Below are positions 2,709 through 32,541 of a DNA stretch of 37,052 nt, in pieces (position 1 is the first letter of the stretch; every line of letters begins with the position of its first letter). The notes under the pieces are model-generated. The model had not been told where the DNA came from. It did not search any database and saw only the letters and a program-made list of their open reading frames with translations. A program made the position numbers and the translations under genes. The DNA is from Candidatus Electronema nielsenii. Its GTDB lineage: Bacteria; Desulfobacterota; Desulfobulbia; Desulfobulbales; Desulfobulbaceae. The DNA lies in assembly GCA_026122915.1 (NCBI GenBank), contig JAGIXO010000005.1:1-37052 (forward strand). The letters run 5' to 3'.

Positions 2709-3349
<641 letters not shown>

Positions 3350-3359
<10 letters not shown>

Positions 3360-6935: not shown

Positions 6936-8069
6936 ATGCCGCAATCGTTAGACAGGCTGACCATCAAAGGCTTCAAGTCCATTCAGTCGCTGGAGAATTT
7001 CGAGCTGCGGAATCTGAATGTGCTGATTGGCGGCAACGGGGCGGGAAAAAGCAATTTCATTGATTTTTTTCGCCTGCTGCGGGCCATGATGGAGCTGCCG
7101 TTACCCGGTATTACCAACGCAAGCCTGCAATCGTATATTGCCGGCGGCGGCGGCAGCGATGCCTTTTTATTCAATGGGTCGTATGTCACACCTTGGATTG
7201 AAGTCGAAACAATGTTTGGCAAGAACGGTTATCGTTTTAAACTAGTTCCTACTGTAGAAGAAGTTTTTTATATTTGTGATGAAGCAAGATATTATGCTGG
7301 CGGAAAAGCAAAATGGTGGGAATTAGGCAGCGGATATTCTAAACCAGAATTGCTTGAAGATAAAAATAAACCGGGAGCTTCTGGGTATCGTAGTGCTTCA
7401 TATTACGTTTACAATGCTATTTCTTCATGGAAGATTTACCATTTTCACGATACCAGCAAAGACGTGCCAATTGCACCGATGCGTGGCTGGGAGACTATTG
7501 ATGATTCAGAATATCTCCGATTTAATGCGGCAAATATCGCTCCATTTCTATATTCTTTAAAAGAATATTGTACTGATTCGTATCGACAAATAATTGATTC
7601 TGTTAGTTTGGTTGCGCCATTTTTTGGAGATTTCATTCTCAAGCCAAACGCGCAGGAAAAAGTGCGGTTGAACTGGCATCAGAAAGGCTCTGATTATCCC
7701 CTGCGGCCATACCATCTTTCTGACGGCACGCTGCGTTTCATCTGCCTTGCCACAGCACTGCTTCAGCCAAATCCGCCCTCAACGATGATCATTGATGAGC
7801 CGGAACTGGGGCTGCATCCTTACGCCATCGAAATATTGGCGGAGCTGATTCAAGCAGCGGCGGAAAAAACACAGCTTATAGTCTCCACGCAATCTCCGGC
7901 CTTGGTTGACTGTTTCCAGCCGGAAGATGTGGTGGTGGTCACAAGAGAAAAAGGCGCATCCGTCTTCAAGCGGCTGAACGCGCAGGAGCTGTCCGCCTGG
8001 CTTGAAGACTACTCTTTAGGCGACCTCTGGCGCAAAGGTGTTATTGCAGCAGGTCCTTCTTATGAGTAA
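6936..8069 (+). CDS. AAA family ATPase (AAA_21/OLD-like, SMC-type head)
   Basis: Walker A NVLIGGNGAGKSNFIDFF; signature-like HLSDGTLRFICLATALL; Walker B TMIIDEPELGLHPYAIEIL; STQSPALVDCF switch region. Confidence 0.92.
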   Translation: MPQSLDRLTIKGFKSIQSLENFELRNLNVLIGGNGAGKSNFIDFFRLLRAMMELPLPGITNASLQSYIAGGGGSDAFLFNGSYVTPWIEVETMFGKNGYRFKLVPTVEEVFYICDEARYYAGGKAKWWELGSGYSKPELLEDKNKPGASGYRSASYYVYNAISSWKIYHFHDTSKDVPIAPMRGWETIDDSEYLRFNAANIAPFLYSLKEYCTDSYRQIIDSVSLVAPFFGDFILKPNAQEKVRLNWHQKGSDYPLRPYHLSDGTLRFICLATALLQPNPPSTMIIDEPELGLHPYAIEILAELIQAAAEKTQLIVSTQSPALVDCFQPEDVVVVTREKGASVFKRLNAQELSAWLEDYSLGDLWRKGVIAAGPSYE

Positions 8070-8757
8070 GGTGGAAGTATGCATTATTGTGGAAGGGCCG
8101 ACTGAGCAGATATTTGTCCGTGATTTTCTTGCCCCGGCAATGTCCGAGAAAGGAATCTATCTCCACTCCGCCCGCATTGGCAGTCCTGGTCATAAAGGTG
8201 GCAACATCCGCTTTGAGCGGGCCAAGAACGACATCGGCAATTTCCTCAAGCAGCGGCCAGACATCTACGTGTCAACAATGTTTGATTATTTCAGAATTGA
8301 TTCGAACTGGCCGGGAAAAGAGCAGATCAGCGGGCAAGTGAAAAGCGGAGTTAGGCTGGCCGCCACTCAAAAAGCTGAACTGCTTGAAACTGCGACGCGC
8401 CATAAAATTGTTATGAGCTTCGGCGGCAACAATGCCGACCGCCGCTTCATTCCCTACATCGCCATGCACGAGTTTGAAGCCCTGCTCTTCAGTGATCCCG
8501 TTGTGCTGGCGGAAAAGATCAAGGTTGAGCCGAAGTCTGTGCAGCAGATTCTTGCCAAATGCGGCAGCCCGGAAGAAATCAATGACCGCCCGGAAACCGC
8601 TCCGTCGAAACGAATTGCCGCGTTGACGAGCGGATACAAGAAGATTGTCATGGGCAGCAGCATTGCTGAAGCCATCAGCATTGCAACCATGCGTCGGCAG
8701 TGCCCACATTTCAATCAATGGCTGACCAATCTTGAGCAGCTTCACAAAGAGATATAA
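8062..8757 (+). CDS. DUF4276 family protein (TOPRIM-like), partner of the upstream ATPase
   Basis: CIIVEGPTEQIFVRDFLAP, STMFDYFRIDSNWPG, IPYIAMHEFEALLFSDP are DUF4276 hallmarks; start ATGAGTAAG overlaps the ATPase stop. Confidence 0.88.
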   Translation: MSKVEVCIIVEGPTEQIFVRDFLAPAMSEKGIYLHSARIGSPGHKGGNIRFERAKNDIGNFLKQRPDIYVSTMFDYFRIDSNWPGKEQISGQVKSGVRLAATQKAELLETATRHKIVMSFGGNNADRRFIPYIAMHEFEALLFSDPVVLAEKIKVEPKSVQQILAKCGSPEEINDRPETAPSKRIAALTSGYKKIVMGSSIAEAISIATMRRQCPHFNQWLTNLEQLHKEI

Positions 8758-13737: not shown

Positions 13738-13774
13738 TAAAAAAACGGTTGGACACTGGAAGCGTCCAACCGTT
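13738..13774 (-). terminator. strong intrinsic terminator at the 3' end of the long minus-strand cluster
   Basis: - strand: AACGGTTGGAC-GCTTCCAGT-GTCCAACCGTT followed by a T-rich run; perfect 11-bp stem (13744-13754 / 13764-13774), 9-nt loop. Confidence 0.85.
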
Positions 13775-13814
13775 CACGCAAGTTTTGATATCGCACATCA
13801 AAGTTGCCGAGCCA

Positions 13815-15103: not shown

Positions 15104-15673
15104 TTATCGCTCGCTCAACATGTCAATGATCCTGCGGGCAAAGAGATGGCAATGCCCACCTGTGCGTCCGGTGACAAGATCGCCGTCCACCACGACATCC
15201 TCATCTGTATAAACCGCGCCGTAGTTTTTCGCGTCGCCAATCAAGTTGTTGTGGCAGGTCAGCCGTCTTCCCTGAACCACTTCAGCAATCGGCGAGGTCA
15301 GCCACAAACCGTGACAGATAATCCCTTTAATGATGCTTTTTTCGGCAAAAGCCCGTTGAAGGAATGCAGCAGCAGGTGATATGCGGTTGACATCTTCGGT
15401 ATATCTGAGACGGTCTGCAACAATCGCGGAAGGGACGATAATAGCTGAGAAAGAACGAAGCGTTTCATCATCCATGTCCTCAAAGCTCTCGCGGCATTCA
15501 AAAGGAACCTGCCATTCATGACCTTTGAATATCAGCGAATTCTGTCCCCAGAGACGGGTTAGAAAATGCAGTTCTGCCCCTTCTTCAGGAAAGCGGTGCT
15601 CGTAATAGAAGATTTCCTTCTCATAGTAATCGCCCTCCATTAGAATGGCGATCTTCTTTCCTTGCAATCTCAT
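15104..15673 (-). CDS. DJ-1/PfpI family protein
   Basis: KIAILMEGDYYEKEIFYYEHRFPEEGAELHFL; IIKGIICHGLWLTSPIAEVVQGRRLTCHNNLIGDAKNYGAVYTDEDVVVDGDLVTGR. Confidence 0.93.
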   Translation of the reverse strand: MRLQGKKIAILMEGDYYEKEIFYYEHRFPEEGAELHFLTRLWGQNSLIFKGHEWQVPFECRESFEDMDDETLRSFSAIIVPSAIVADRLRYTEDVNRISPAAAFLQRAFAEKSIIKGIICHGLWLTSPIAEVVQGRRLTCHNNLIGDAKNYGAVYTDEDVVVDGDLVTGRTGGHCHLFARRIIDMLSER

Positions 15674-16156: not shown

Positions 16157-17362
16157 CTAACAAGCTGATTTGAGGATATGGAGAACATCTTCTTCCTCAA
16201 GTTTCTTGAAAGTTCCCATTGTGCCAAAACGAAGTGCCCGCTTTGCAGCGATCGGCAGTATATCTGGATCAACCCCGGCTTCACTCCAATTCGTTGGAAT
16301 TCCGAGTGAAGACCAAAACTCAATGGTCTTGTGAATTCCTTCCATGCCGAGTTCAATATCACCCCTCCCGTTACGTGGGATATTCCATACTTCCGAGGCA
16401 TAGCGTGCGAAACGTGCCGGATGATCGCCAATTACGTATTTCATCCAAGCTGGGAAAATAATAGCCATGCCCAAGCCATGATTGAGGTCTGTTAACGCTG
16501 TAATCTCATGCTCAATAAAATGAGAAGTCCATTCTGGGATCACACCGGTAATGTTCTGTGCACTGCATGACCAGAGAGCCGCATACATCAATTCTGCACG
16601 GGCCGCATAATCTTCTGGATACGAAATAACACGAGTACCACAGGTGATAATTGTTTTCAGAGCACCTTCTTTCATTCTATCCAGATATTCCGTGTTTTCG
16701 GACTGGCTGAAGTATTGCTCAAAATAATGCGTCATCATATCAGCTATACCGTATGCGGTCTGGGCTGCCGACAAGGTATAGGTCAAGGTTGGATCACAAA
16801 TCGAAAATCTCGGATAAAATACCGGATTCATATGCAGCAGTTTCTCGTGCGGTGTGCCTTCCTCCCATTTCGTTACGACAGAAGTTAAATCGAACTCAGA
16901 TCCGGTGCCTGCCTTTGTTATCACTACACCTATCGGAAGTGCCTCACGAGGGATATTCTTCTCGGCATCAGGCACACGCCTGAGAAAATCTGAGAAAGCA
17001 TTCCAGATATCAAAATCTGATTTTGCACCAGCAGCAATTGCTTTCGCAGTATCGCTCACGCTTCCGCCGCCAACAGCGAGAATAAAATCAATCTTCTCCT
17101 CATGGCAGAGATCAATGCCTTTGTAAACCATATCCATCCTAGGATTCGGATGCACTCCTCCAAAATCAATCCAAGAAATATCTGCATCTTGAAGCAGATT
17201 GACGATCCTGTCATAGACACCATGCTGCCTGATATGCTTTTCTCCGTATACAAATAGGACTTTTCTGCCATACGGAAGAATTTCTTGAGCAAGATTATTA
17301 ATCTGCCCATTGCCAAACAAAATTTTTGTCGGCGAATGATAAACAAAATTTTCCATCTGCAT
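16157..17362 (-). CDS. iron-containing alcohol dehydrogenase
   Basis: FVYHSPTKILFGNGQINNLAQEI; ILAVGGGSVSDTAKAIAAGA; GTGSEFDLTSVVT; DLNHGLGMAIIFPAWMKYV (metal-binding His region). Confidence 0.95.
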   Translation of the reverse strand: MQMENFVYHSPTKILFGNGQINNLAQEILPYGRKVLFVYGEKHIRQHGVYDRIVNLLQDADISWIDFGGVHPNPRMDMVYKGIDLCHEEKIDFILAVGGGSVSDTAKAIAAGAKSDFDIWNAFSDFLRRVPDAEKNIPREALPIGVVITKAGTGSEFDLTSVVTKWEEGTPHEKLLHMNPVFYPRFSICDPTLTYTLSAAQTAYGIADMMTHYFEQYFSQSENTEYLDRMKEGALKTIITCGTRVISYPEDYAARAELMYAALWSCSAQNITGVIPEWTSHFIEHEITALTDLNHGLGMAIIFPAWMKYVIGDHPARFARYASEVWNIPRNGRGDIELGMEGIHKTIEFWSSLGIPTNWSEAGVDPDILPIAAKRALRFGTMGTFKKLEEEDVLHILKSAC

Positions 17363-18703: not shown

Positions 18704-20389
18704 TCAGCGCGGCACCTGACTGCCGATCATCATGTCAATCAAAAATGGTCCATCATGGGCCAATGCTTTTTCAATAGCCGGATGCACCTGATCCGGTGTT
18801 TCCACTTTCACCCCTGGCACACCCATTGACTGAGCCAAACTGACAAAGTCAATAACTGGATCCTTCAATGAGAAGGAATCAGGGAAGGCATGTTCCTTAA
18901 CTCCGACCTGATCTTTCCAGTATTGCAGAACATTGAGCTTCAAGAGCATGTAGCTCTGGTTGTTGCAGATGATGAACTTCGCCCCAATTTTGTGATGCGC
19001 CGCTGTCCACAGGGCTTGAATAGTGTACATGCTGGCACCGTCGCCGCTCACGCTGATGACCGTTTTCTCAGGGTTGGCTATTTTTGCTCCCAAAGCACCG
19101 GGAATGCCAACTCCCAGCGAGCCGCCGCGCACTTGGAAGAAATGGTTGGGCTTAGTCGGTGGACAGTAGCGGGTCAGCTGCGTGGAGGAAGTCAGAGCTT
19201 CATCAAAAATAATCGCATCCTCCGGCAGCAAGGCAGCCAGCTCTTCCATAAAGCGGGAGGGATGGAGCGGAATTTCATCGCGCACCGCGCTGTCTGCTGC
19301 AATCTGAGCAGCCCGTTTTTTTTCTTTGGCAACCCGCAGCTCTTCCGCACGGCCCGCAGCGGCCTGCTTCTGCTCGGCAGTCATGACCGTTGCAAGCGCA
19401 TCGGCGAGCAGCTGCATGGTCAGTTTCGGATCGCTGACGACACCGAGGTCAACCGGATGGTTCTTGGCGATTTCATGGGCATTCAAATCCACATGAATGA
19501 TTTTTGCATCAGGGGCATAAATGTTCTCCAACCTGCCGAAGACTTCCGGCACCATGTACGTGCCGCAGACAAAATTCACATCACCCTTGGAAGTGATCGG
19601 ATAGCTTGCCTCGCCGAACATGTGACCGGTCTGCCCCTGATACAGGGGATGAGTGTAGCTCATATTCAACTCGCCGGAATCCACGCTCCAGACCTCCGCG
19701 CCCAGCAGCTCGGCCAGCCGAGTCAGCTCCTCCTGAGCTCCGGAATACGCCACACCGTCGCCCATGAAAATCATCGGCTTGCGGGCGTTTGCCAGCAGCT
19801 CAACCGCCTGCTGGATGAAATCATCGCCCGGCACAACGCGAGTCGAGGGAATGAACGCCGGATACACCTCTTCCACCACCGGCATGTCCAAAAGATCAGC
19901 AGGCAGACAGACATAGACCGGCCCCATCGGCGGAGTGGCGGCGATTTTCACTGCCCGGCGCAGGACGCGCAAAGTGGATGCGGCATCCGTCACCATAGTG
20001 GCCCATTTTGTGACCGGCTTGGCAAAAGCTACCAAATCGCCGTACATCTGGGCTTCCAGCGGCAGATACTTCAGCCCGGCATCGCCGCCGATGATGACCA
20101 AAGGCGCGTGGCCGCGCATGGCTTGGTACATCGCGCCGATGGTGTTGCCCAAGCCGGGCGAGCTGTGTATCTGCACCAAGGCCGGTTTTTTTGTCGCTCT
20201 GGCATAACCATCGGCCATCATCAAAGCCACTGACTCCTGCAAGGTCAGGATGTACTTCATCTGCGGATAGGCGGCCAAGGCATCAAGAAAGCCCTGCTCG
20301 ACTGTGCCGGGATTGCCAAACATATGATCCATTCCGTCAGCAAGAAACTGCTCGATGATGGCGAAACGGTATGTTTTTTTATCGTTCAT
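18704..20389 (-). CDS. thiamine-pyrophosphate enzyme, benzoylformate decarboxylase/acetolactate synthase-like
   Basis: FGNPGTVEQGFLDAL, LQESVALMMADGYARAT, QIHSSPGLGNTIGAMYQA, GSLGVGIPGALGAKIANPEKTVISVSGDGASMYTIQALWTAAHHKIGAKFIICNNQSY (GDG...N TPP motif). Confidence 0.93.
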   Translation of the reverse strand: MNDKKTYRFAIIEQFLADGMDHMFGNPGTVEQGFLDALAAYPQMKYILTLQESVALMMADGYARATKKPALVQIHSSPGLGNTIGAMYQAMRGHAPLVIIGGDAGLKYLPLEAQMYGDLVAFAKPVTKWATMVTDAASTLRVLRRAVKIAATPPMGPVYVCLPADLLDMPVVEEVYPAFIPSTRVVPGDDFIQQAVELLANARKPMIFMGDGVAYSGAQEELTRLAELLGAEVWSVDSGELNMSYTHPLYQGQTGHMFGEASYPITSKGDVNFVCGTYMVPEVFGRLENIYAPDAKIIHVDLNAHEIAKNHPVDLGVVSDPKLTMQLLADALATVMTAEQKQAAAGRAEELRVAKEKKRAAQIAADSAVRDEIPLHPSRFMEELAALLPEDAIIFDEALTSSTQLTRYCPPTKPNHFFQVRGGSLGVGIPGALGAKIANPEKTVISVSGDGASMYTIQALWTAAHHKIGAKFIICNNQSYMLLKLNVLQYWKDQVGVKEHAFPDSFSLKDPVIDFVSLAQSMGVPGVKVETPDQVHPAIEKALAHDGPFLIDMMIGSQVPR

Positions 20390-20394
20390 TTTAC

Positions 20395-22452
20395 TCAGGC
20401 TCCTTGCTGCTTCTGTTGTCTGGCCACATCAGCGTTTTTGTTTTCTGCTCCCCATCTGATCATCAGCATGGTGATGTCATCTGACTGAGGTTCTTGCACT
20501 GCATGTGCTCTGACCTCACGCAAAATACCGTCAATTACTTCCTTGCAGGGTTTGTCTTGCATACTGAAAAAACTTTCAAGCAATCTTTTATCGCCGAACA
20601 ACTGCTCTTCTTTGTTCATGGCTTCTGTTACGCCGTCAGTGCAGAGGAAGATTGCTTCGCCCGGCGGAAGAACAGCCGAAAATTCCTTATAGCTGATGCC
20701 AAGCGTGGAACCAACCGGAGGACCGCTCACATCTTTTCTGAAGAAAGGGGCGTTGCCGCCATTTGTGAACAGAGGCTGCGGCGCATGACCGCAATTCACA
20801 TAACATAACTCACCAGTAGTGACATCAAGAATACCAAAAAATAAGGTGACGTAATCTAAATTTTGATTGTCATAGCAAAGAAATTTATTGAGCTGGTTAA
20901 TTATTTCTCCAGGTGAATCACATCTATCATTTTGAAGGAAGCTGATGTCGATTAACTTTTTAACAACCGTCATCATTAAAGCAGCAGGAACTCCCTTGCC
21001 AACAACATCTCCAATCGCAATGCAGATATGCTTTTCGTCAATTTCAAAGAAATTATACAAATCACCGCCAACTTCCCGTGCAGGAAATATTTCCGCATGA
21101 ATTTCAATCTTCTTTTCTGGAGGGCAGGAAAAATTTCTTGGCAAGCTGCGATGCTGGATATCTCTGGCGACATTTAGTTCTTTTTCTATTCCTAACAATT
21201 TTCTATGCGATTCAAACAACTCAGAAATTCTTACAAACCAATTTAGCCAATATTCTGGTACATCTGGAATGACTATTTTTTCATTCTTTGTTTCCTTTTC
21301 TATATATCTTACTAATTCTTCAGCAGGATATATTAATTCTTTAAAAGTTATTTTTTTAGTATAAAAAATAATTATCAACAAAGCAGTCAATAGAATAAAA
21401 AATACAGTCGCTACTCTTGAAATAATCAATTTAAAATAAGTACCTTTTTCGGAAATAAAAATAATCCTCCAACGAGGAGCATTTTCTATCCTATTCCAAA
21501 TATATAAATAAGAATATATTCTCAATATACTGAGAGGTTCTTGTTCTTTATTTAATATATTTTCTTGCATTTTACCTGGGATAATATCTTCTATTTTGTA
21601 AATTTTTTCAAAAGAAAGATCGGGGGAAGCAATCACCTGGTTATATTCATTTACAATTAAAAGTGACCCTTTTGTATCATCAAAATTATTTACATATTTA
21701 TTTAGATATCCACTAAGTTTCTCTAATGTAATATCAATTCCTATAACACCAATAAGTTTATTATCTACATAAACTGGTTTTAATGCTGTAAACATTAATC
21801 CTTTTCCGAATACATCGTAATATGGACCATATAACCAGATTTCTATTTTTTTGTTTTTTTCAAAAAAGATCTTGCATTTTTCAAGGAAAATCGATTGTTT
21901 TTCAAAATTCTTAAAACTGACTAGTTTTGATGTAGTCCATGGATAAATATTCTTAAAATTATTTACAGACAAATAGTATATCCATTCAGAATTTTTTATA
22001 TTATGCTTTGTTGACTCAAACAAAGGATTCAAACTTATTGACATATTAATCTCATCTCTTAATTTTACAGAAAAATCAAGAGGATTCCCTTCTCCTATAA
22101 TATTTCCTGTATATTTCCTGTATTGATATGGAATGTTATCAAGACTGTATATATTATCATTCATTGATAATGAATTTAAAATCTTACTATTACCAGAAGA
22201 CTCAAGTCCTATAAAAAAGTTTTCCGCTTTAATTTGCATTGAATTTATATTTGAATTTATATTCAACATAAAATTATCAACAGCCATTGTTCTTGATTTA
22301 ATTCCTTCAATTATTCTTGTGTTATTATTGCTTATTATTTGATGTATCTCGATCAATGCAAGAAAAATAGATATAAATAATACAACTGTAAACACAATGA
22401 ACATTTTTCTGTTGTATCGTGATATAAAATTTTTTTTTGAATTTTTCATCAT
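20395..22452 (-). CDS. SpoIIE-type PP2C serine phosphatase with extracytoplasmic dCache-like sensor (RsbU/IcfG-like)
   Basis: TM1 FIVFTVVLFISIFLALI, sensor with PVYVDNKLIGVIGIDITLEKL, TM2 VATVFFILLTALLIIIFY, then EKELNVARDIQHRSLPRNF, GGDLYNFFEIDEKHICIAIGDVVGKGVPAALMMTVV, YVNCGHAPQPLF, FLCTDGVTEAMNKEEQLFG, SDDITMLMIRW. Confidence 0.93.
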   Translation of the reverse strand: MMKNSKKNFISRYNRKMFIVFTVVLFISIFLALIEIHQIISNNNTRIIEGIKSRTMAVDNFMLNINSNINSMQIKAENFFIGLESSGNSKILNSLSMNDNIYSLDNIPYQYRKYTGNIIGEGNPLDFSVKLRDEINMSISLNPLFESTKHNIKNSEWIYYLSVNNFKNIYPWTTSKLVSFKNFEKQSIFLEKCKIFFEKNKKIEIWLYGPYYDVFGKGLMFTALKPVYVDNKLIGVIGIDITLEKLSGYLNKYVNNFDDTKGSLLIVNEYNQVIASPDLSFEKIYKIEDIIPGKMQENILNKEQEPLSILRIYSYLYIWNRIENAPRWRIIFISEKGTYFKLIISRVATVFFILLTALLIIIFYTKKITFKELIYPAEELVRYIEKETKNEKIVIPDVPEYWLNWFVRISELFESHRKLLGIEKELNVARDIQHRSLPRNFSCPPEKKIEIHAEIFPAREVGGDLYNFFEIDEKHICIAIGDVVGKGVPAALMMTVVKKLIDISFLQNDRCDSPGEIINQLNKFLCYDNQNLDYVTLFFGILDVTTGELCYVNCGHAPQPLFTNGGNAPFFRKDVSGPPVGSTLGISYKEFSAVLPPGEAIFLCTDGVTEAMNKEEQLFGDKRLLESFFSMQDKPCKEVIDGILREVRAHAVQEPQSDDITMLMIRWGAENKNADVARQQKQQGA

Positions 22453-22484
22453 ATTATATATGTATAATTTGCAATTGATTGTTT

Positions 22485-22910
22485 TTAACAAAAATTTACA
22501 TTAAGACAATTTACATTAAATCCATCCATATATTCATATCTAAATTCGTCAACGCCTGTTATTGCAAGATAGATACCGAGTCCTCCGATGCGCCGCTCTT
22601 CAGTAGGTTTACTCAAACACGCTTTCTCCATCTCCAGCTTATGTCGTGGATCAAAAGGAACACCTTGATCCCTCAGTTGAATAATCAGAGAGTTTTTTTT
22701 AATTTCACAAGCCATGAATATTTTCGCGTCCTCCTCGTTCAGACCGCTGTAGAGGATAATGTTGGTTGCAATCTCGTCCACCGCCAGCTGAAGCTTGTAG
22801 AGCTTCTTTTTATCTATCGGCAAACCGGCGGCAGCGGTAGCCACATAATCCCGCATGTCCTTCAGTGCATCCAAGCTGACCGGAAATGCCTTTTCTTCTG
22901 AGAGCGGCAT
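22485..22910 (-). CDS. HATPase_c anti-sigma-factor-type serine kinase (RsbW/SpoIIAB-like)
   Basis: LQLAVDEIATNIILYSG (N-box), IIQLRDQGVPFDP, ERRIGGLGIYLAITGVDEFRYEY (G-box). Start 22910 has GGAGGAGCC upstream. Confidence 0.9.
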   Translation of the reverse strand: MPLSEEKAFPVSLDALKDMRDYVATAAAGLPIDKKKLYKLQLAVDEIATNIILYSGLNEEDAKIFMACEIKKNSLIIQLRDQGVPFDPRHKLEMEKACLSKPTEERRIGGLGIYLAITGVDEFRYEYMDGFNVNCLNVNFC

Positions 22911-22961
22911 GGCTCCTCCAAGGCCAAGGCGGCGGAAACACTCCACCCCTTGGCCGACGAA

Positions 22962-23303
22962 TCAGAACTTTTCTACAACAGCTGCGTCGTAGCTGTCTAA
23001 CATGGTCACGCTGTGCTCCAGACCGGTCATAGTGATGGTGTCAACAACCTGCTCTTGGGCCTCGATCACGTAAATATCCACCGAGCTGCCGAGCTTCTGC
23101 TTGGCAAAAACTAAAACTCTCAGACCTGCGCTGGCCATGAAGGACAGGCCGCCCAGCAGCAGAGCAACGCGTTTGGCCTTATTCGCAATAGCTTGTCCGA
23201 TAAGCCCTTCAAATTCTCGATAAGTGCTGGAATCCAGCTTGCCGCTCAGAGTTATTCTCGCAACACCATTCGAGGTCATATCCAAAGATGATTCAAAACT
23301 CAT
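22962..23303 (-). CDS. STAS domain anti-sigma factor antagonist
   Basis: MSFESSLDMTSNGVARITLSGKLDSSTYREFEGLI...LLLGGLSFMASAGLRVLVFAKQ; start 23303 with AGGAGA upstream (alternative start 23327). Confidence 0.9.
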   Translation of the reverse strand: MSFESSLDMTSNGVARITLSGKLDSSTYREFEGLIGQAIANKAKRVALLLGGLSFMASAGLRVLVFAKQKLGSSVDIYVIEAQEQVVDTITMTGLEHSVTMLDSYDAAVVEKF

Positions 23304-23323
23304 GTTCCATTCTCCTGTTGTCA

Positions 23324-25519
23324 TCAATTGTTCTTCCTTCCGACCAGAACAAACACTGAACGCCCGCCTGCAATGACCTGATGCTGATCATCCAGCACCG
23401 GCTCCTCGCCATGCGCAAAAATATCCTGCGGCGAGGCCATGCTGGTGTTGACCGCCATGCGCCATGTGTATTCAGGCGGCAGGACAGGCAGCTCAAACGG
23501 CAGGGCATCCCAGTGCATGTTCATGGCCACGTAAATGAAATCATCTGCGCCGTATTCTTCTTTCTTCTTGACATACTGGCCGTTGAGCATGAAAGCGACC
23601 ACATTGCCGCTCCAATCGGCATTCCATGCTTGGGTGCCGTGCCATGTGATGTCGGCATAGCCGGTGCCTTTCCAGTCCTGATTGCTGAAGTAATGGCTGT
23701 TCCGCAGAATCGAATGAGCGTGGCGGAAGGCGATGATCTGCTTGAAGAAGCGCAGCAGCTCGCTGTTCTTTTCCGTCAGCGACCAGTCCAGCCAGTTCAG
23801 CTCATTGTCATGACAATAGGTGTTGCTGTTGCCGTACTTGGTGCTGCCGACCTCGTCGCCTTGCAGGATCATCGGCACGCCTTGGCTGACCATGAGCATG
23901 GTCACGGCGTTTTTGATCTGCCGCCGCCGCAGGGCGTTGATGCCCGGATCGTCGGTCTCGCCTTCCCAGCCGCAGTTCCAGCTGTTGTTGTCGTTGTCCC
24001 CGTCCTGATTATTTTGTAAATTTGCCTCGTTGTGCTTGCCGTTGTAGGCCACTGTATCATACAGGGTGAAGCCGTCATGACAGGAAATGAAATTGATCGA
24101 GGCGGTTGGCCCGCGCGACCCGTACAGGCCCGGCGACCCTTGCAGCACTTGGCTCATCGCCCCGGCCTGTCCTTGATCGCCTTTCAGGAAACGGCGCAGG
24201 GTGTCGCGGCTCTTGCCGTTCCATTCCGACCAGCGGCCATAGTTTGGAAAGGAGCCGACCTGATACAGCCCGCCTGCGTCCCACGCCTCGGCAATCAGCT
24301 TGCATTTGCCCAGCACCGGGTCAAAGGCCAAGGCCTCCAGCAGCGGCGGATTGTCCATCGGCGCGCCAAATGCGTTGCGGCTGAGGATGGAGGCGAGATC
24401 AAAGCGGAAGCCGTCAATGTGGTACTCAGATGCCCAGTAGCGCAGAGCGTCAAGAATCATGCCACGCACAATCGGGTCGTTGCAGTTGAGAGAATTGCCC
24501 GTGCCGCTGAAATTTTGGTAGTATCCTTCCGGCGTGAGCATGTAGTAAGTCTGATTGTCAATTCCCTTGTAGGAAATGACCGGTCCGCGATGATCGCCTT
24601 CCGCCGTGTGGTTGAAGACGACATCCAAAATGATCTCAATGCCGTGCCGGTGCAGCTCCTTGACCAAGGTTTTGAGTTCATCAGCGACCATGGTGCCATC
24701 GCCGGTTTTGCCGGTCGCCGCAAAGCCTGCCTTTGGCGCGAAGAAGCCTACGGTGGAATACCCCCAGTAGTTCATCTTCACCCATCTGCCTGTGGCCTCG
24801 TCGTATTTGGAGAACTCGAACTCATCAAACTCGTAGATCGGCATCAGCTCGACGCAGTTGATGCCCAGCTCTTTGAGATAGGGGATTTTCTCCCGCATTC
24901 CGGCAAAGGTGCCTGCCCGGCCTTCCCGCACCCCGGATGACGGATGCTTGGTGAAGCCGCGCACATGCGCCTCGTAGATCACCAAGTCTTCCTTGGGGAT
25001 TTCCGGCGGCCTGTCGCCTTCCCAGTCAAAGTCGTCAAAAATGATCCGGCTGCGGTGCGGATAAGGATCGCTCCAGTCCGGCATCTTGCCCCATTCGTCG
25101 CGTCCGCCGATGGCCTTGGCGTAAGGATCCATCAGGGTTCTGGCCGGATCAAAGCGGAAGAAGCCCGGCTTGCCCTGCTCGCTGTGCGGATAGGCCGGAT
25201 TGTCCATGCGGAAGCCGTATTCGATCTCCTCATGATCCAAATCCAGCACGGTCATGGTGAACACATTGCCGATCCGAAAATCAGCCCAGTCCGGCTCCCT
25301 GCTGGCCGCTTTGAGGAACTGGCCCCGGAACGGGATCACAGCATACGGCTCCCGCTCGCCCCGCCGGAAGAGCAGCAGGCAGCAATAGCTGGCGTTGCGG
25401 GAGAAGACCGAAAAATTGATGCCGCCTGGCACGAGCGTGGCCCCGAAAGGATAGGGCTTGCCGGGCCTCAGCTTGAACTCTTGGAAAAGATGGGTTGGAT
25501 GAACGTCAATCCTGTCCAT
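23324..25519 (-). CDS. glgX: glycogen debranching enzyme GlgX (isoamylase family, GH13)
   Basis: GKPYPFGATLVPGGINFSVFSRNA; EAHVRGFTKHPSSG; YWGYSTVGFFAPKAGFA; DVVFNHTAEGD; DGFRFDLASIL; LIAEAWDAGGLYQVG; FISCHDGFTLYDTVAYN; MLMVSQGVPMILQGDEVG. Confidence 0.95.
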   Translation of the reverse strand: MDRIDVHPTHLFQEFKLRPGKPYPFGATLVPGGINFSVFSRNASYCCLLLFRRGEREPYAVIPFRGQFLKAASREPDWADFRIGNVFTMTVLDLDHEEIEYGFRMDNPAYPHSEQGKPGFFRFDPARTLMDPYAKAIGGRDEWGKMPDWSDPYPHRSRIIFDDFDWEGDRPPEIPKEDLVIYEAHVRGFTKHPSSGVREGRAGTFAGMREKIPYLKELGINCVELMPIYEFDEFEFSKYDEATGRWVKMNYWGYSTVGFFAPKAGFAATGKTGDGTMVADELKTLVKELHRHGIEIILDVVFNHTAEGDHRGPVISYKGIDNQTYYMLTPEGYYQNFSGTGNSLNCNDPIVRGMILDALRYWASEYHIDGFRFDLASILSRNAFGAPMDNPPLLEALAFDPVLGKCKLIAEAWDAGGLYQVGSFPNYGRWSEWNGKSRDTLRRFLKGDQGQAGAMSQVLQGSPGLYGSRGPTASINFISCHDGFTLYDTVAYNGKHNEANLQNNQDGDNDNNSWNCGWEGETDDPGINALRRRQIKNAVTMLMVSQGVPMILQGDEVGSTKYGNSNTYCHDNELNWLDWSLTEKNSELLRFFKQIIAFRHAHSILRNSHYFSNQDWKGTGYADITWHGTQAWNADWSGNVVAFMLNGQYVKKKEEYGADDFIYVAMNMHWDALPFELPVLPPEYTWRMAVNTSMASPQDIFAHGEEPVLDDQHQVIAGGRSVFVLVGRKNN

Positions 25520-25522
25520 GTC

Positions 25523-25864
25523 TCAGCCCAGCCCTTGGAAACCGGCTTCAACAGTATCGAAGACTTGAAAAAAGGGCAGAAACCCGGTCGCCTCCATGTT
25601 GTCCCTGATGCCGTCGGGCAGCGCGGCCAAAGCGACAGTTTTGCTCTGCCCCTGCTGCGTCTGCTGATGCGTGACCAGCATGGCCCGCAGCCCTGCGCTG
25701 GACATGAACGAAACTTGGCTCAGGTCAAGCAGCACTATGTCTGCCTCACACAGAACTTCCAGCATCTTTGTTTGAAAGGCGGGCGCGGTCTTGCCGTCAA
25801 TGAAGCCGCAAGTTATGACCAGTGTCACCTTGTCTGCCTGTTTGACAGTTATCTCCATGTCCAT
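25523..25864 (-). CDS. STAS domain anti-sigma factor antagonist
   Basis: VTLVITCGFIDGKTAPAFQTKM...IVLLDLSQVSFMSSAGLRAMLVTHQQ; conserved phosphoacceptor-type SSAGL. Confidence 0.92.
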   Translation of the reverse strand: MDMEITVKQADKVTLVITCGFIDGKTAPAFQTKMLEVLCEADIVLLDLSQVSFMSSAGLRAMLVTHQQTQQGQSKTVALAALPDGIRDNMEATGFLPFFQVFDTVEAGFQGLG

Positions 25865-25866
25865 GC

Positions 25867-27693
25867 TTATTTTCCTCCAGTCGGCTCAATCTGTACTTTC
25901 ACCGTCACCCGCTCGCTGATATTGTTGAGGGAGACGGTCAGTCTGTCTGCGTTGAAATGCTTGTATTGCTTGTCATCCACCCAAACTTGGCTGATGCGGA
26001 CGGTGCCTGCGGGCAGGATGTCCGGCGCGACCCGCAGCAGGTTGTTCGGCAGCACGCCCGGCAGCGGCTTGAAATGGAGCGTCAGCGGCTTTTTGGTGAT
26101 CAGCAGATTGGTGCAAACCTGTGCTAAATAAGCCAGTTCGCAGGAATGATAACCGCTCATGGAGTGGCTGCCCTTCAGCCGCTCGTTGCCCATCAAGTAA
26201 GGGATGCCGTTAGCCAGCACGTTGAAATAGACAGCCCCGCCCTCATGATCCGGGAAGAAGGCGTTGTAGAAGGCTGAGGATTCTCTGGCGATGCGCAGAT
26301 ATTCCTCGTCACCCAGCACTCCGTGCAGAATGAGATAAGCGAGAATGCCCTGCTCCTGCTGCCACCACGCCTTGCGGTCATGAAAGCCCATGCGGTGGCA
26401 GGTTTCGCCCTCGCGCAGCTTGCGCTCCATGACATCATACCAGCCGCCGCGCTGAAGGTCACAGCCCACTTTGGGCATGACCTCAGCGATTTTCCGGGCA
26501 AACTCTTCGTATTCCTTTTTGGGCAGCTCGCCGAACATCCGCATCAGGTTCCAAGCAATTTTCAAATTGTGGCCGACCACGCCCCGGTTTTGCTGCCACA
26601 TATAGGTGGTGTCATGCGACCAGTCTTCATGAAATTTTTCCTGTACGAACGGGCTGTTGTCGTAATCAGGGAAATATTTGACGATAGTGTCAAAAGTGTA
26701 TTCCAGCATCCTGCCGTAGCGGTGATCGCCGGTGGCAAGATAGAGGTTGATCAGATAGGCCGGGGCGTGGTCGCCGACCGAATTCCAGTTCTTCTTGGCG
26801 CGGTTGGCTCCGAGCGAGGCGCTGCGCGGGTCAAGGGTGATTGGGTCAAGGTGTGAGAAATAGCCGCCTTTTTCCTTGTCCAAGAAGAAACGGTCAAACA
26901 GTTCCACCGTCTGCCGCGCATCTTCAAGAATGCGCGGATCACCGGTGACGCGGTAGGTCTGCACCGGACCAGCCAAGGCATAAATCTGTTCATAGGCAGG
27001 AATGGTATCAAAATCATCGTAGAATCCTGAAGCAAGGATTTTGGTTTCCCGTTTTCCTTGCACATCAATGCCATGATACCAGTAGGTGACACCCTCATCC
27101 ATATCAACAAAGCGCATGTGCTCACGCAGATATTCAGTCCCTTTCTCGGCGCCTTCAAGGAAACGCTCGTCGCCGGTCAGCATGTAGGCTGAGGCAAAAC
27201 CATAGACCAAGCGGGAGATGGTATCTGTCTCCTGCTTGTAGTTGTCTTGCTGCTTTTTACCATCCAGCGTGATGATCGTTCTGTAATTCTTGTAATCAAC
27301 AGGTCCGTCGCCAAACTGCGCCTTCAGATAGAAATCAGCAATAGCATGAATCTGCTTGACCCACCAATCTTGTTTTTCAAACAGATATTCATCAAGTCTT
27401 GCTCCGCTGAAAACTAAATACTGCGCCTCAATGGCATATCCGTTTGTCTCAGGATAAAAAATGCCATAGACAAAAATATGTCTTCCAGCCTCCAGCATGT
27501 CGCGCATCTGCTCGCCGCACTTCTGGCGAGGCTCGTTCAGATTATTGGCAATCCATGCGTCTGTGCTTGATGAAAATTTAACTGCATACTCACGATCATC
27601 AGAGGTCTTTAGGGTAAATATGTCGCTGCCTCTGTCAAATGAGGAGACGTATCCAGATATAGTATCTGAAAACTCAAAGTTTATCTTGTTCAT
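25867..27693 (-). CDS. N-acylglucosamine 2-epimerase (AGE)-family-like protein, probable (alpha/alpha)6-barrel, with an extra N-terminal domain
   Basis: SRLVYGFASAYMLTGDERFLEGAEKGTEYLREHM; HRYGRMLEYTFDTIVKYFPD; VVGHNLKIAWNLMRM; RKAWWQQEQGILAYLIL; EGGAVYFNVLANG are AGE-like repeats. Confidence 0.8.
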   Translation of the reverse strand: MNKINFEFSDTISGYVSSFDRGSDIFTLKTSDDREYAVKFSSSTDAWIANNLNEPRQKCGEQMRDMLEAGRHIFVYGIFYPETNGYAIEAQYLVFSGARLDEYLFEKQDWWVKQIHAIADFYLKAQFGDGPVDYKNYRTIITLDGKKQQDNYKQETDTISRLVYGFASAYMLTGDERFLEGAEKGTEYLREHMRFVDMDEGVTYWYHGIDVQGKRETKILASGFYDDFDTIPAYEQIYALAGPVQTYRVTGDPRILEDARQTVELFDRFFLDKEKGGYFSHLDPITLDPRSASLGANRAKKNWNSVGDHAPAYLINLYLATGDHRYGRMLEYTFDTIVKYFPDYDNSPFVQEKFHEDWSHDTTYMWQQNRGVVGHNLKIAWNLMRMFGELPKKEYEEFARKIAEVMPKVGCDLQRGGWYDVMERKLREGETCHRMGFHDRKAWWQQEQGILAYLILHGVLGDEEYLRIARESSAFYNAFFPDHEGGAVYFNVLANGIPYLMGNERLKGSHSMSGYHSCELAYLAQVCTNLLITKKPLTLHFKPLPGVLPNNLLRVAPDILPAGTVRISQVWVDDKQYKHFNADRLTVSLNNISERVTVKVQIEPTGGK

Positions 27694-28183
27694 GCTTTAT
27701 TGTTCGTAAAATTTTAAGTAAAAATATCTTATGTCAGTTACTGACCTCATTGTTCTGACAGTTAATCGTCACCAATACATCATAATTTGCCTATATATTA
27801 CGAATAATAAAAAATGTCAATTTTTTTTTTTCAAAAGGAATGGGAATGATTATTATTAATACAACAAGGCTTACGCAAAAACTAAGGAGTTAAATGGAAT
27901 CTGAGTCAATAGGAGCCTAAGACCTAAAATACAATTTGTCACCTGCTTGACTGGAGTTTTGTCTATATCTTTTAGTTAGAAAAATCAACTACACACTGAC
28001 GAACTGGCAATGGTTCACCATTACCCCCTGCATGGGGCTTGACTTGGATAACAGTATCTAAAAAAAGCACTATCCGTATTTTTCATCTTGCCCCCGCTGC
28101 CGCCGCGTTTTATATTAACATCCCTTGTTAAGGATGCAGTCAAATTATTCTCAAACTAACAACAATGAGGAATAATCACTATC

Positions 28184-28579
28184 ATGAAAAAGATGTGTTT
28201 TGCAGTTCTCTTTGTTCTTTTTATGACGGTAGCAGCTTATGCGGAAATTAATATCAATACTGCTACTAAAGATGAATTGAACTCATTAGCCGGGATCGGG
28301 CCGATAAAAGCTGAAGCTATCGTGAAACATCGTCAAGAAAAAGGTCCGTTCAAAAGTATTGACGAACTAAAGAACGTTTATGGTATTGGGGACAAGCTTT
28401 TGGACCGAATCAAAAGTGATATTACAGTCGGCAACGTAGACGTAGCGACAGAGGCAAAATCAACCGCTAAAGCTAATGCTACGACAGCGCAGGCGGAAGT
28501 GAAGGCACAGGAAAAATCAGCACAAGCACCAGCTACTAACAAGAAGGCAGAAAATTTACCTGTACAGCAGAAACAGTAA
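28184..28579 (+). CDS. ComEA-like helix-hairpin-helix protein with signal peptide
   Basis: MKKMCFAVLFVLFMTVAAYAE signal; ININTATKDELNSLAGIGPIKAEAIVKHRQEKGPFKSIDELKNVYGIGDKLLDRIK tandem HhH; Ala/Lys-rich tail. Confidence 0.92.
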   Translation: MKKMCFAVLFVLFMTVAAYAEININTATKDELNSLAGIGPIKAEAIVKHRQEKGPFKSIDELKNVYGIGDKLLDRIKSDITVGNVDVATEAKSTAKANATTAQAEVKAQEKSAQAPATNKKAENLPVQQKQ

Positions 28580-28585
28580 ATTGCA

Positions 28586-28616
28586 AAGCAAGGGCAGAAT
28601 CTACCTGCCCTTGCTT
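28586..28616 (+). terminator. terminator-like hairpin downstream of the ComEA-like gene
   Basis: AAGCAAGGGCAG-AATCTAC-CTGCCCTTGCTT perfect 12-bp stem; weak U-tract. Confidence 0.6.
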
Positions 28617-28680
28617 GAATATCATTCCGTACATCGCTCCGCTCCAAGATCGGCAGTTCCTGCCGCCCGACCATCTTTGT

Positions 28681-29763
28681 TTAAATCCACTTTTTTCTTT
28701 TGAAATAAACAAATAGGCCAAGGCTAATAGCCAGCATGAGAGACCAGATCATGCAATAGCCATAATGCCATTTCAACTCTGGCATATATTCAAAGTTCAT
28801 TCCGTACACGCCGACAATAAAAGTCAAGGGAATGAAAATTGTAGATATAATGGTGAGCATTTTCATGATTTCATTCATGCGATTACTGATACTGGACAGA
28901 TAGGTATCGTGCATTCCGCCAAGAATATCTCTACAGGTTTCTGCCATATCAATAATTTGGATCGTATGGTCGTAGAGATCACGCCAGAAAACTTTCGTTT
29001 CTGCCTGAAGCAAAGTTGAATCACTTTTTGCAATGATGCCGACTTCTTCACGAAATGGCCATATAGCTTTGCGAAGATGCAAAATATCTCGTTTAAGTTG
29101 ATGAATTTCTCTTATGTCTTCTGGTCTTGGTTCAGCAAGTATCTGTTCGTCGATATCTTCAATGCGATCACCGATACGTTCAACGGTTAAGAAGTAATGA
29201 TCAACCACAGCATCCATGAGAGAATAGGCGAGGTAATCAGATTTCAGCAGGCGAATGCGACTTGTGGCGGCCCGAATGTGATTCCGCACCGTATCAAAAA
29301 GATCACCTTCATCCTCGATAAAGGAAATGACATAATTTTTTCCAAGAATCATGCTAACATGTTCAATAACAAGATTGTTCGCTCCATCATAGGACATCAT
29401 CTTGAGAACAATAAACAGATAATGTGAAAATTCTTCGACTTTTGGCCTCTGCGTCGTATTGACGATATCTTCCAGCGTCATCGGATGAAGATCAAAACAT
29501 TTTCCCAACAATTCAATCTGATTAATATCATGAATGCCGTTGACATTCATCCACGTTATTCCAGGTACTTTGGCAAAAACAAGACATTGATTCACCGTAG
29601 TATCACGTAATTCATTCAGCTCAGTTTCGCTATAATGGATGATATCAATGCTGGCCTTATCTTGTTTTTTTTCCCCGATAAAAAGCATTGTTCCCGGAGC
29701 CATGCCGATTTTAATGCCTGCACCGATAGGCTTTCTTTTCTTTTTCTTTATAAATCGTGACAT
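28681..29763 (-). CDS. corA: CorA-type Mg2+/Co2+ transporter
   Basis: PGITWMNVNGIHD, PMTLEDIVNTTQRPKVEEF, TIISTIFIPLTFIVGVYGMNFEYMPELKWHYGY (GMN motif). Confidence 0.95.
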   Translation of the reverse strand: MSRFIKKKKRKPIGAGIKIGMAPGTMLFIGEKKQDKASIDIIHYSETELNELRDTTVNQCLVFAKVPGITWMNVNGIHDINQIELLGKCFDLHPMTLEDIVNTTQRPKVEEFSHYLFIVLKMMSYDGANNLVIEHVSMILGKNYVISFIEDEGDLFDTVRNHIRAATSRIRLLKSDYLAYSLMDAVVDHYFLTVERIGDRIEDIDEQILAEPRPEDIREIHQLKRDILHLRKAIWPFREEVGIIAKSDSTLLQAETKVFWRDLYDHTIQIIDMAETCRDILGGMHDTYLSSISNRMNEIMKMLTIISTIFIPLTFIVGVYGMNFEYMPELKWHYGYCMIWSLMLAISLGLFVYFKRKKWI

Positions 29764-29829
29764 TGCAAGGCCTTATTGTTTGATTCATCCTTACCTGCAT
29801 GTTAAAACACGGTCAGGATAATCAGGTTG

Positions 29830-31605
29830 TTATTTCTCGTTGAAGCCCCAGTACGGATAATCGAGCTGATACGAGGCAACTAAGCCCGGACTGTGTTCGC
29901 GGCTGGCCACTAACCAAAGATCGTTACACCGCAGCTCGGCAGGTTCTCGGTTAAACGGGTCCCACTGCGGCAGCAGCACCATTGCATTGTCGGCAGAGTA
30001 TTCGATATCACCGGAACCCTTGAAGGCACCAAGCTGCGGCTGTTGATCGTATTGGCCATCCTCGCGGCGAGTCAGCTCAGAGATGACAAGAAAAGAGGCG
30101 TTGAACAAATCACGGAGTGACTCTAACTGCCGCAGCCAAGCATCAATGCCAGTACGCCGTTCAGCAAAATCTTTAAATGGCAGTTTATGTAAGCTATCAA
30201 TCACCACCATGATGCAATCGGCATTGGTCTGATGACGGAGAAAATCGATGTGGCTGCGCATGAGTTCTGGACTTAATTTGCGGTCTGTGACCACCCAGAA
30301 CCAAGGCAGAAGCCGCTGAAGTTCTACCTTACCCGCCTGTAACCTCGCACGTTCCTCTTCGTTCAGTTCGCCAATTTTGATTTGCTCGACAGACAGTCTG
30401 CTCAGACGACAGAGAATGCGTTGATAAATTTTCTGTCTGCCGTTCTCAAAATCATAATAAATCACTGGAATTTTGCGCCGGGCCATCTCGCTGGCAATCT
30501 GGATGAAAAAGCAAGACTTACCCGCCTTAGGCAAGCCACCCATGATGTTGATTCCGTGCATTCCTCCCAATGCCGTATCTAATTTGGCAAAACCGGAGCG
30601 CATGGCCGCATGGCTTTCGCCGCTTTCTAACTTGAGCTGCTCCTCAAATTGGAGAAATTCCCGTTCTGGCGAGCTGAAAGGCGAAAAGGACTTTGCTTCA
30701 CGGATCAAGCGAAAGACCGCCTTCTGGAAATCGTTGCCCAGCTCGGCGGCCATTTTAGTCAGGCAATACTGCTTAGGCGCGGAATCCGGCCAGCGGATCA
30801 TTCTGACTTTGAAGCCTAATCGTCCGGCAAAATCCCGCGCTGCGGTTTCTGATTCTGGATTCTTGCTAACACAAACGAAGAGCGTTTTAATCCAAGCCAA
30901 TCGCTCTGCTTCCAAATTGACAAAATCCGCTGCTGATACCAAAGCGATACTGGGTAGGCCGAGCTGTTTCAACGTGAGTAAGTTATCTTCTCCCTCGACG
31001 ACGATCAAACTGCCATTTTCGCAGCGCATGATCTCTTGGAGATTGAAAATACGAAAGCTGGGCGCGGAAAATTCCTCGTTACCGTGCCAAAATGTATCGT
31101 CTGGCTGATAAGGATGGACACAGTGGGCGGCGTAGCAGTTACCGTCTTCTTGGAAATAGGGATAGACCAAGTAGCGGCCATTGAAGCCAATTCGCATTTC
31201 TTCCAGCACCGCCTTAGAAATGCCCATCGCGGCAAAGCGGATGATTAAATCAGCAGTCAGCTTTTCATGAAAGCTGATAATTTCACTGTTGATGTTTTTA
31301 GTCGGATAATTGATCTTGGCGGTAGCGTAGTCGCGATCTGGGTCGACACCGGGCGCGAGACTCAGGCTGAGGCGAGACTGTCGAGCGAAATGGAGAGGAA
31401 AGCCGCCGGGTGTGCAGCGGTGCAAACACCGGTAATAGCCATAAAAATGACTTTCTGGGTTGGCGAATACCACCAGCAGCCGTTTCACGCCGCCCTTGCC
31501 TTGCTCGTGACAGAAAGGACATTCCGCCATCAGGAAGCTATTTTTTAGCACTGCGCCGGGCAGATGCATGCTGTAGAAGGCAAGAATGGGATCAATGCGG
31601 CTCAT
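29830..31605 (-). CDS. primase/helicase-like protein: CHC2-like zinc motif, TOPRIM-like region, DnaB/RepA-like RecA-fold ATPase
   Basis: CPFCHEQGKGG...YYRCLHRC; SLIVVEGEDNLLTLKQLGLPSIAL; Walker A IMGGLPKAGKSCFFIQIA; Walker B CIMVVIDSLHKL; LVISELTRRED. Confidence 0.82.
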   Translation of the reverse strand: MSRIDPILAFYSMHLPGAVLKNSFLMAECPFCHEQGKGGVKRLLVVFANPESHFYGYYRCLHRCTPGGFPLHFARQSRLSLSLAPGVDPDRDYATAKINYPTKNINSEIISFHEKLTADLIIRFAAMGISKAVLEEMRIGFNGRYLVYPYFQEDGNCYAAHCVHPYQPDDTFWHGNEEFSAPSFRIFNLQEIMRCENGSLIVVEGEDNLLTLKQLGLPSIALVSAADFVNLEAERLAWIKTLFVCVSKNPESETAARDFAGRLGFKVRMIRWPDSAPKQYCLTKMAAELGNDFQKAVFRLIREAKSFSPFSSPEREFLQFEEQLKLESGESHAAMRSGFAKLDTALGGMHGINIMGGLPKAGKSCFFIQIASEMARRKIPVIYYDFENGRQKIYQRILCRLSRLSVEQIKIGELNEEERARLQAGKVELQRLLPWFWVVTDRKLSPELMRSHIDFLRHQTNADCIMVVIDSLHKLPFKDFAERRTGIDAWLRQLESLRDLFNASFLVISELTRREDGQYDQQPQLGAFKGSGDIEYSADNAMVLLPQWDPFNREPAELRCNDLWLVASREHSPGLVASYQLDYPYWGFNEK

Positions 31606-31623
31606 ACAGCTCCTCAGCGACAG

Positions 31624-32520
31624 TCAGACTTTTCGGAGAAGATGGTTCAGGGTAGTCGCTAAATCTGGCTCGCGGAAGACGTAGCCTGATGCAAGTAGCC
31701 TGCTTGGTGTTACCTTTGTGCTCGCGAACAGCAACTCGCGGCCCATTTCGCCCAAAAGCAGTTCAAGTAGAAAGCGGGGCGCGGGTAAAAGAGCCGGGCG
31801 GCAAAGCACCTTGCTCAAGGCTTTGGTGAATTCTCGATTCGTAGCTGGGCAAGGAGAAACCGCGTTGACCGGGCCGTGTAGTTCCTCATGCTGAAGGATA
31901 TGTTTGATGATATGCGGGATTTCATCACGACTAATCCAGCTCATCCACTGTTTGCCGCTGCCCATTACTCCGCCTAAACCCAGCTTGAAAGGTGGCAACA
32001 TTTTTGCCAAGGCTCCGCCTTCTGTGCTGAGAACAATGCCAAAGCGGAGGTTGACCACTCGAATGCCCGCAGCTCTCGCAGGCTGCGCTGCTGCTTCCCA
32101 CTCCTGAGCCACGTGGGCGAGAAAGCCTGTGCCAATGCTGCTGGCCTCGGTCAGTTCTTCGTCGCCACGGTCGCCATAGATACCCACTGCCGAGGCGGAG
32201 ATAATCACTTTGGGCTTATAATCAGCCTGAGCAAAAAACTGAGCAAGCAGCCGGGTACTGTCAACGCGGCTTTGCCGGATGCGCTCCTTGCGGGCCACAG
32301 TCCAGCGGTTATCCGCGATGTTCTCCCCAGCCAGATTAATCACTGCGTCAACCTGTTTGTCCGGCCCCAGCTCAATGATTTGCCGGTCTATATCCCCCCA
32401 GAACGGCGCGGTGTGCGTAGTGTCACGGCGCAGGGCAAGCACCTGATGGTCTTGGATAGACAAGGACTGCATCAATGCCCGGCCCACCAAGCCAGATGCG
32501 CCGGAGATGAGGATGTTCAT
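31624..32520 (-). CDS. TIGR01777 family NAD(P)-dependent epimerase (YfcH/SDR39U1-like)
   Basis: MNILISGASGLVGRALMQSL; VDAVINLAGENIADNRWTVARKERIRQSRVDSTRLL; SASAVGIYGDRGDEELTE; GGVMGSGKQWMSWISRDE. Confidence 0.95.
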   Translation of the reverse strand: MNILISGASGLVGRALMQSLSIQDHQVLALRRDTTHTAPFWGDIDRQIIELGPDKQVDAVINLAGENIADNRWTVARKERIRQSRVDSTRLLAQFFAQADYKPKVIISASAVGIYGDRGDEELTEASSIGTGFLAHVAQEWEAAAQPARAAGIRVVNLRFGIVLSTEGGALAKMLPPFKLGLGGVMGSGKQWMSWISRDEIPHIIKHILQHEELHGPVNAVSPCPATNREFTKALSKVLCRPALLPAPRFLLELLLGEMGRELLFASTKVTPSRLLASGYVFREPDLATTLNHLLRKV

Positions 32521-32541
32521 GACTAATCTCCCCGCCTGTGG

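Follow-up and report, generated by a model that had tools for sequence, protein, structure and literature searches.

An apparently horizontally acquired icfG-type partner-switch operon in Candidatus Electronema nielsenii with a possible STAS2–epimerase coupling

Work on the icfG cluster as a carbon-control locus of cyanobacteria goes back to the 1990s. A 37,052-nt stretch of Candidatus Electronema nielsenii (GenBank assembly GCA_026122915.1, contig JAGIXO010000005.1, positions 1 to 37,052; hereafter the window) carries on its - strand genes for an AGE-like sugar 2-epimerase, two STAS proteins (STAS1 and STAS2), a GlgX-type debranching enzyme, an RsbW-type kinase and a SpoIIE-type membrane phosphatase. 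This raises the question of what such a partner switch controls in a member of the Desulfobulbaceae. We read the locus as a horizontally acquired 14-gene icfG-type operon in which docking of STAS2 on the AGE-like protein would couple the switch to enzymes of glucan and carbonyl metabolism, and put the probability of this reading at roughly 0.5.

The initial annotation had likened six open reading frames of this region to the Synechocystis icfG cluster. Domain searches agree with these frames, their order and their strand. Orthology was tested by reciprocal best hits against the cluster of Synechocystis salina. All six core proteins were reciprocal best hits (identities: AGE 63%, GlgX 61%, STAS2 49%, kinase 41%, STAS1 37% and phosphatase 30%), and for this reason the identification as icfG-type holds. 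The DJ-1 gene of the window also has its reciprocal best hit in S. salina, where an unassigned 203-aa gene, a carboxymuconolactone-decarboxylase gene and a DJ-1 gene lie immediately upstream of AGE. The order AGE, STAS, GlgX, STAS is present, and both STAS orthologues carry the phosphoacceptor serine. STAS1 scored 131 bits with the STAS1 model and 48 bits with the STAS2 model; STAS2 scored 151 bits with its own model and 50 bits with that of STAS1. The two serines of the STAS1 motif are invariant in 73 of 73 STAS1 proteins, and the acceptor serine in 62 of 62 unfused STAS2 proteins. Intact motifs were found in the RsbW-type kinase (N box DEIATN at 45, G boxes DQGVP at 81 and GGLG at 109), in the SpoIIE-type phosphatase (metal motifs GGD at 462, GDVVGKG at 481, TDG at 605 and SDD at 657) and in GlgX (GH13 motifs FRFDLA at 371, IAEAWD at 409 and CHDG at 480).

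The host had been suspected to be non-cyanobacterial. This was confirmed by its 16S, which carries the target of the Desulfobulbaceae probe DSB706. The icfG cluster of Synechocystis sp. PCC 6803 (slr1852-slr1862) shares with the window DJ-1, the AGE-like protein, STAS1, GlgX, STAS2, the SpoIIE-type phosphatase and the RsbW-type kinase; in strain 6803 these genes form one co-regulated, salt-repressed operon (PMC8670252). In the window, however, the kinase precedes the phosphatase, the latter has a periplasmic dCache sensor, DJ-1 lies toward the 3′ end of the run, and a thiamine pyrophosphate (TPP) enzyme, three SnoaL-like genes, an iron-containing alcohol dehydrogenase (Fe-ADH), a glyoxalase and ThiJ are added. 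With the RsbU-RsbV-RsbW and SpoIIAA-SpoIIAB-SpoIIE systems the window shares the three kinds of protein and their conserved motifs. It differs from them in having no sigma gene, in its two STAS paralogues and in the interleaving of the core enzymes with the switch genes.

Is the grouping of these genes accidental, and is it an exception to a cyanobacterial rule? Scanning 85,488 species genomes, we obtained at least 541 relatives of AGE; the best 80 of these were read, so that the tally is biased toward the kin of the window. The 83 AGE loci outside the window belong to about eight phyla. All 83 have GlgX at a distance of no more than 8 kb from AGE, the conserved neighbourhood for which the initial annotation had proposed a check, and if the window is counted, 63 of 84 loci have AGE, STAS1 and GlgX in strict adjacency; the six-gene grouping is therefore not due to chance. 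The full set of six was found in Cyanobacteriota (27 of 51 loci), Chloroflexota (6 of 10), Omnitrophota (3 of 5), Deinococcota (2 of 5), Pseudomonadota (2 of 4), in two of three other genomes of the host's order and in two further genomes, one flagged as contaminated in its title. Many of the incomplete sets are due to contig ends. AGE–STAS–GlgX together with a switch also occurs in Elusimicrobiota. Thus, the idea of an exception to a cyanobacterial context has to be given up, as the cluster is found across many phyla. No icfG cluster outside cyanobacteria turned up in the literature searched, although published ones may exist. The exchanged order of kinase and phosphatase, regarded at first as a peculiarity of this locus, is real; it is not distinctive, since the order varies within phyla and cyanobacterial loci show both (12 kinase-first, 15 phosphatase-first), and thus cannot serve to define the family.

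The accompanying enzymes recur as well. DJ-1 family members were found in 65 AGE loci, close relatives of the window DJ-1 being 66–71% identical to it, relatives of the TPP enzyme in seven other loci (58–67%), of the 127-aa SnoaL-like protein in eight (57–69%) and of the 144-aa protein in 13, including both Chloroploca loci (76%). The double SnoaL-like protein has a 64% identical relative in locus L019, and glyoxalase (54–62%) and ThiJ (55–76%) relatives also lie in AGE loci; Fe-ADH is the only operon gene without a relative in the other AGE loci compared. Among a sample of 398 genomes of the host's phylum, six had a match, the host included. Two of the other loci (L158 and L159) carry the core, and there DJ-1 separates kinase and phosphatase. 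In three more (L160, L161 and L162), AGE homologues of 36–41% identity are accompanied by ThiJ and GH13, in two cases each by the TPP enzyme and DJ-1, and variously by SnoaL, and a recognised switch is absent. As these distant homologues sit with the enzymes but without the switch, they suggest that the switch might have been attached to an older set of enzymes. In order-mates, an NMT1/THI5-like periplasmic binding protein is encoded between kinase and phosphatase (L007, 7482-8813; L008, 7979-9001); it was identified in L008, and the L007 counterpart was read by eye. Perhaps it is a ligand-sensing partner of the phosphatase.

Which protein the switch acts upon is suggested by gene fusions. A STAS domain is present at the C-terminus of 11 AGE proteins: eight from cyanobacteria, one from a planctomycete, one from Dictyobacter and one fragment from the host's family (G014). 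All 11 fused domains are of the STAS2 type (38–120 bits with the STAS2 model compared with 10–37 bits with the STAS1 model). Around the ten fusion loci with context, neither a switch kinase nor a phosphatase was found as a separate gene, and the acceptor serine is replaced by threonine, proline or lysine in nine of the 11. These fusions point to docking of STAS2, the Slr1859 type, on the AGE-like epimerase. In the simplest reading, free STAS2 would dock on AGE under phosphorylation control, and fusion would fix the docking where the kinase has been lost. In eight cyanobacterial loci (L053, L072, L073, L075, L079, L081, L084 and L089), GlgX is followed by the AGE–STAS fusion and a partner-switch kinase is absent; most of them continue with a response-regulator/thioredoxin-reductase-like protein, a cyclic-nucleotide-binding histidine kinase and LtrA.

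A division of labour between the two STAS proteins also has to be considered, with STAS1 acting in an arm of kinase, phosphatase and sigma factor and STAS2 in an enzyme arm. The two are of distinct types and only STAS2 was found fused to AGE. In Synechocystis, IcfG dephosphorylates Slr1856 and not Slr1859 (PMC12329169), and low-carbon growth with glucose suffers from deletion of slr1859 but not of slr1856 (PMC11619594), which fits STAS2 as output arm. On the other hand, Slr1861 phosphorylates both proteins, in addition to Ssr1600 (PMC12329169). We consider such a mixed output possible, though short of probable.

The operon apparently came from outside the host's own order. Its nearest relatives are loci of Trueperaceae and Gammaproteobacteria (L011-L014 and L016), which have the kinase–phosphatase core order of the window. 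The AGE of the window is 72–75% identical to sequences of these groups and 61% to those of order-mates; for GlgX, identity to the five loci is 69–71%. The AGE and GlgX trees agree in placing the window near Trueperaceae and Gammaproteobacteria and apart from its own order. This grouping is fully supported in the GlgX tree, and an AGE clade of window and order-mates was rejected (approximately unbiased test on a quick tree, p-AU 4e-5). As in the window, ThiJ and DJ-1 lie nearby in L011, L012 and L014; unlike in the window, ankyrin-repeat proteins adjoin ThiJ in L011 and L014 and come after the phosphatase in L012, and genes for the TPP enzyme, SnoaL and Fe-ADH were not detected near the five loci. 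The operon is absent from four genomes of the same genus and sporadic in the host's class, where three other genomes among 265 have it. In a sister species (G004), FtsK and CorA are 98% identical to those of the window. The two genomes are colinear at 95% DNA identity over 28058-32521 (blastn) and then diverge, with no match leftwards on the G004 stretch; with the left side of the window, the G004 stretch read has only FtsK in common. The agreement of the two trees, the rejection of the order-mate clade and the lack of the operon in the sister species argue for horizontal acquisition. The imported GlgX is a second type for this host, since it is only 42–44% identical to the GlgX of the genus itself.

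Relatives outside the phylum and a left side sharing only FtsK with the sister species might also result from a foreign stretch joined into the bin during assembly. However, both flanks on the contig belong to the genus, the colinear right flank extends over 4.5 kb and bin contamination is 0.7%, so that we regard an artefact as highly improbable. A recent, decaying import without working output in its host would be in keeping with the sporadic distribution and with the composition of the phosphatase sensor half (window 21180-22452), which has 25% GC (19% at third positions) in a region of about 50%. Against this, all 14 reading frames are open, the core catalytic and phosphorylation motifs are intact and the makeup resembles that of other such operons; we consider a passive import improbable. 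The kinase and the catalytic half of the phosphatase have 43% and 44% GC. A swapped sensor, suspected from the AT-richness, was disfavoured because the protein aligns with dCache phosphatases of other clusters over 460–523 residues.

No other SpoIIE phosphatase was found in the genus genomes, that of the window being the only SpoIIE protein in its genome; a small RsbW-type kinase was not found either, the best other matches sitting in long open frames, and other STAS domains are mostly in transporter-length proteins. This makes a resident cognate sigma system unlikely. The switch therefore seems to be self-contained, which weakens a sigma target without excluding it. The sigma factors of the genus are two RpoD-like and one RpoH-like, other kinds were not found, and a cognate alternative sigma gene was not found in the window run. 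Still, the kinase could act as an anti-sigma factor and sequester an RpoD-family sigma until STAS1 or STAS2 releases it, with AGE and GlgX merely co-transcribed or regulated. The two RpoD-like factors would provide candidates, and such a transcriptional output has been demonstrated for the kinase orthologue, as Slr1861 binds SigC and controls RNA polymerase–SigC in Synechocystis; sigma targets of Slr1856 and Slr1859 are listed as unknown (PMC12329169). A sigma gene is, however, neither at the window locus nor recognised among the orthologous clusters that were read, further partner-switch parts that could have kept a cognate sigma factor are lacking in the genus, and the AGE–STAS2 fusions at kinase-less loci are left unexplained. 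We regard a sigma switch as less likely than not, yet as a rival to be taken seriously.

The AlphaFold model of the AGE-like protein (predicted local distance difference test, pLDDT, 83; predicted template modelling score, pTM, 0.89) shows an (alpha/alpha)6 barrel between two beta domains. The best PDB match is glucose-2-epimerase 8h1n (E 3e-15, 21% identity), and cellobiose 2-epimerases and a mannose isomerase match as well. Fold and catalytic histidine are those of the AGE/cellobiose 2-epimerase superfamily: the GHN motif lies at 374, and H375 is invariant in 47 sequences. Region 481-508, relevant to the second catalytic histidine, has low confidence in the model. It is plausible that the protein acts as a 2-epimerase on glucose or on the reducing ends of released glucans.

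The extent of the operon was larger than at first described. The tight packing reported for the core is correct: gaps are 2 nt between AGE and STAS1, 3 nt between STAS1 and GlgX, 20 nt between GlgX and STAS2, 51 nt between STAS2 and kinase and 32 nt between kinase and phosphatase. For the last three proteins likely starts were used that differ slightly from the longest frames (ATG at 23303, 22910 and 22452, respectively). The TPP enzyme begins 5 nt past the phosphatase, and seven further same-strand genes run to 13815 (Table 1). No strong terminator-like site was seen within the 14-gene run from 27693 to 13815, and the - strand of the scanned region has no terminator-like stem longer than that of the hairpin at 13775-13743. 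The run is probably a single transcript. An Rfam search of the window did not find an RNA. The initial annotation overlooked the downstream half of the operon, as well as the horizontal transfer and the AGE–STAS2 fusions.

Table 1. The 14-gene run and its borders, in window coordinates.
Feature	Position	Strand	Evidence
AGE-like sugar 2-epimerase, 608 aa, Slr1855 type	25867..27693	-	PF07221 4.8e-20; predicted fold
STAS1, 113 aa, Slr1856 type, SSAGLR (Ser55/Ser56)	25523..25864	-	PF01740 3.3e-14
GlgX/isoamylase-type debranching enzyme, 731 aa, Slr1857 type	23324..25519	-	TIGR02100 2.9e-187, slightly below cut-off
STAS2, 113 aa, Slr1859 type, ASAGLR (Ser58)	22962..23303	-	PF01740 1.3e-12
RsbW/SpoIIAB-type serine kinase, 141 aa, Slr1861 type	22485..22910	-	HATPase_c_2 PF13581 3.4e-17
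Membrane phosphatase, periplasmic dCache + SpoIIE/PPM, IcfG type	20395..22452	-	PF07228 + PF02743; SpoIIE 1.4e-43
TPP enzyme, 561 aa, benzoylformate-decarboxylase-like	18704..20389	-	PF02775/PF00205/PF02776
SnoaL-like protein, 127 aa	18285..18668	-	PF12680
Double SnoaL-like protein, 287 aa	17371..18234	-	PF07366
Iron-containing alcohol dehydrogenase (Fe-ADH)	16157..17362	-	PF00465
SnoaL/NTF2-like protein, 144 aa	15688..16122	-	relatives in AGE loci; its relative matched no Pfam family
DJ-1/PfpI protein, 189 aa, Slr1854 type	15104..15673	-	PF01965; S. salina reciprocal best hit
Glyoxalase/VOC protein, 142 aa	14665..15093	-	PF00903
ThiJ/PfpI-like protein, about 272 aa	13815..14639	-	PF17124
Terminator-like hairpin, 15 pairs then T run, probable operon end	13743..13775	-	stem scan
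AT-rich upstream region, presumed promoter	27694..28058	-	colinearity with G004 begins at 28058

Elsewhere in the window, an AAA ATPase and DUF4276 pair (6936-8757) matches the candidate anti-phage system HEC-01 (HEC-01A, E 4e-134; HEC-01B, E 7e-75). A hybrid histidine kinase (receiver-HisKA, then HATPase-receiver) at 2709-4342 lies in two overlapping frames split around 3350-3359, which is a frameshift or an assembly error.

In the mechanism that we propose, the membrane phosphatase would perceive a signal via its periplasmic dCache domain. The kinase would phosphorylate STAS1 at Ser56 and STAS2 at Ser58, the phosphatase would remove the phosphate from at least one of them, and the unphosphorylated proteins would dock on their targets. 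Direct docking of STAS2 on the AGE-like epimerase would link the switch with the debranching of stored glucan (GlgX) and with epimerase, DJ-1/ThiJ, glyoxalase and TPP enzyme, which may act on the sugars set free and on reactive carbonyls. That storage-glucan use is controlled by serine phosphorylation, as first suggested from the position of GlgX between the STAS genes, would fit the conserved phosphoserine motifs and catalytic residues, which by themselves do not tell which enzyme is controlled. Gene content, orthology, motif conservation, foreign origin and the fusions in relatives rest on the analyses above, whereas the single transcript, the direction of control, the docking of the unfused proteins and the carbonyl role are inferred. 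Several points weigh against this scheme. The kinase orthologue has the anti-sigma activity on SigC described above. The fusions indicate linkage and do not tell which of the states is the active one, and the fused STAS may have a new job. The substrate hint for AGE is a fold match only, and D254 of glucose-2-epimerase is not conserved in the alignment. The metagenome-assembled genome is 69% complete, which makes absences in it weak. Of the two possible mechanisms, enzyme docking and sigma control, the fusions favour docking for STAS2.

For the family as a whole, we tentatively propose, at somewhat below even odds, that the icfG switch is a multi-phylum metabolic switch in which phospho-dependent docking of STAS2 on AGE-like epimerases controls a glucan-debranching and carbonyl pathway, whether in place of a sigma factor or in addition to one. 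Given its spread over many phyla, the cluster has no necessary link to photosynthesis or carbon concentration as such; the accompanying enzyme genes represent a defined pathway open to assay. The AGE–STAS2 fusions make the question of the STAS targets experimentally addressable, and the host genus, having no other partner switch, offers a clean background for asking what the imported switch controls.

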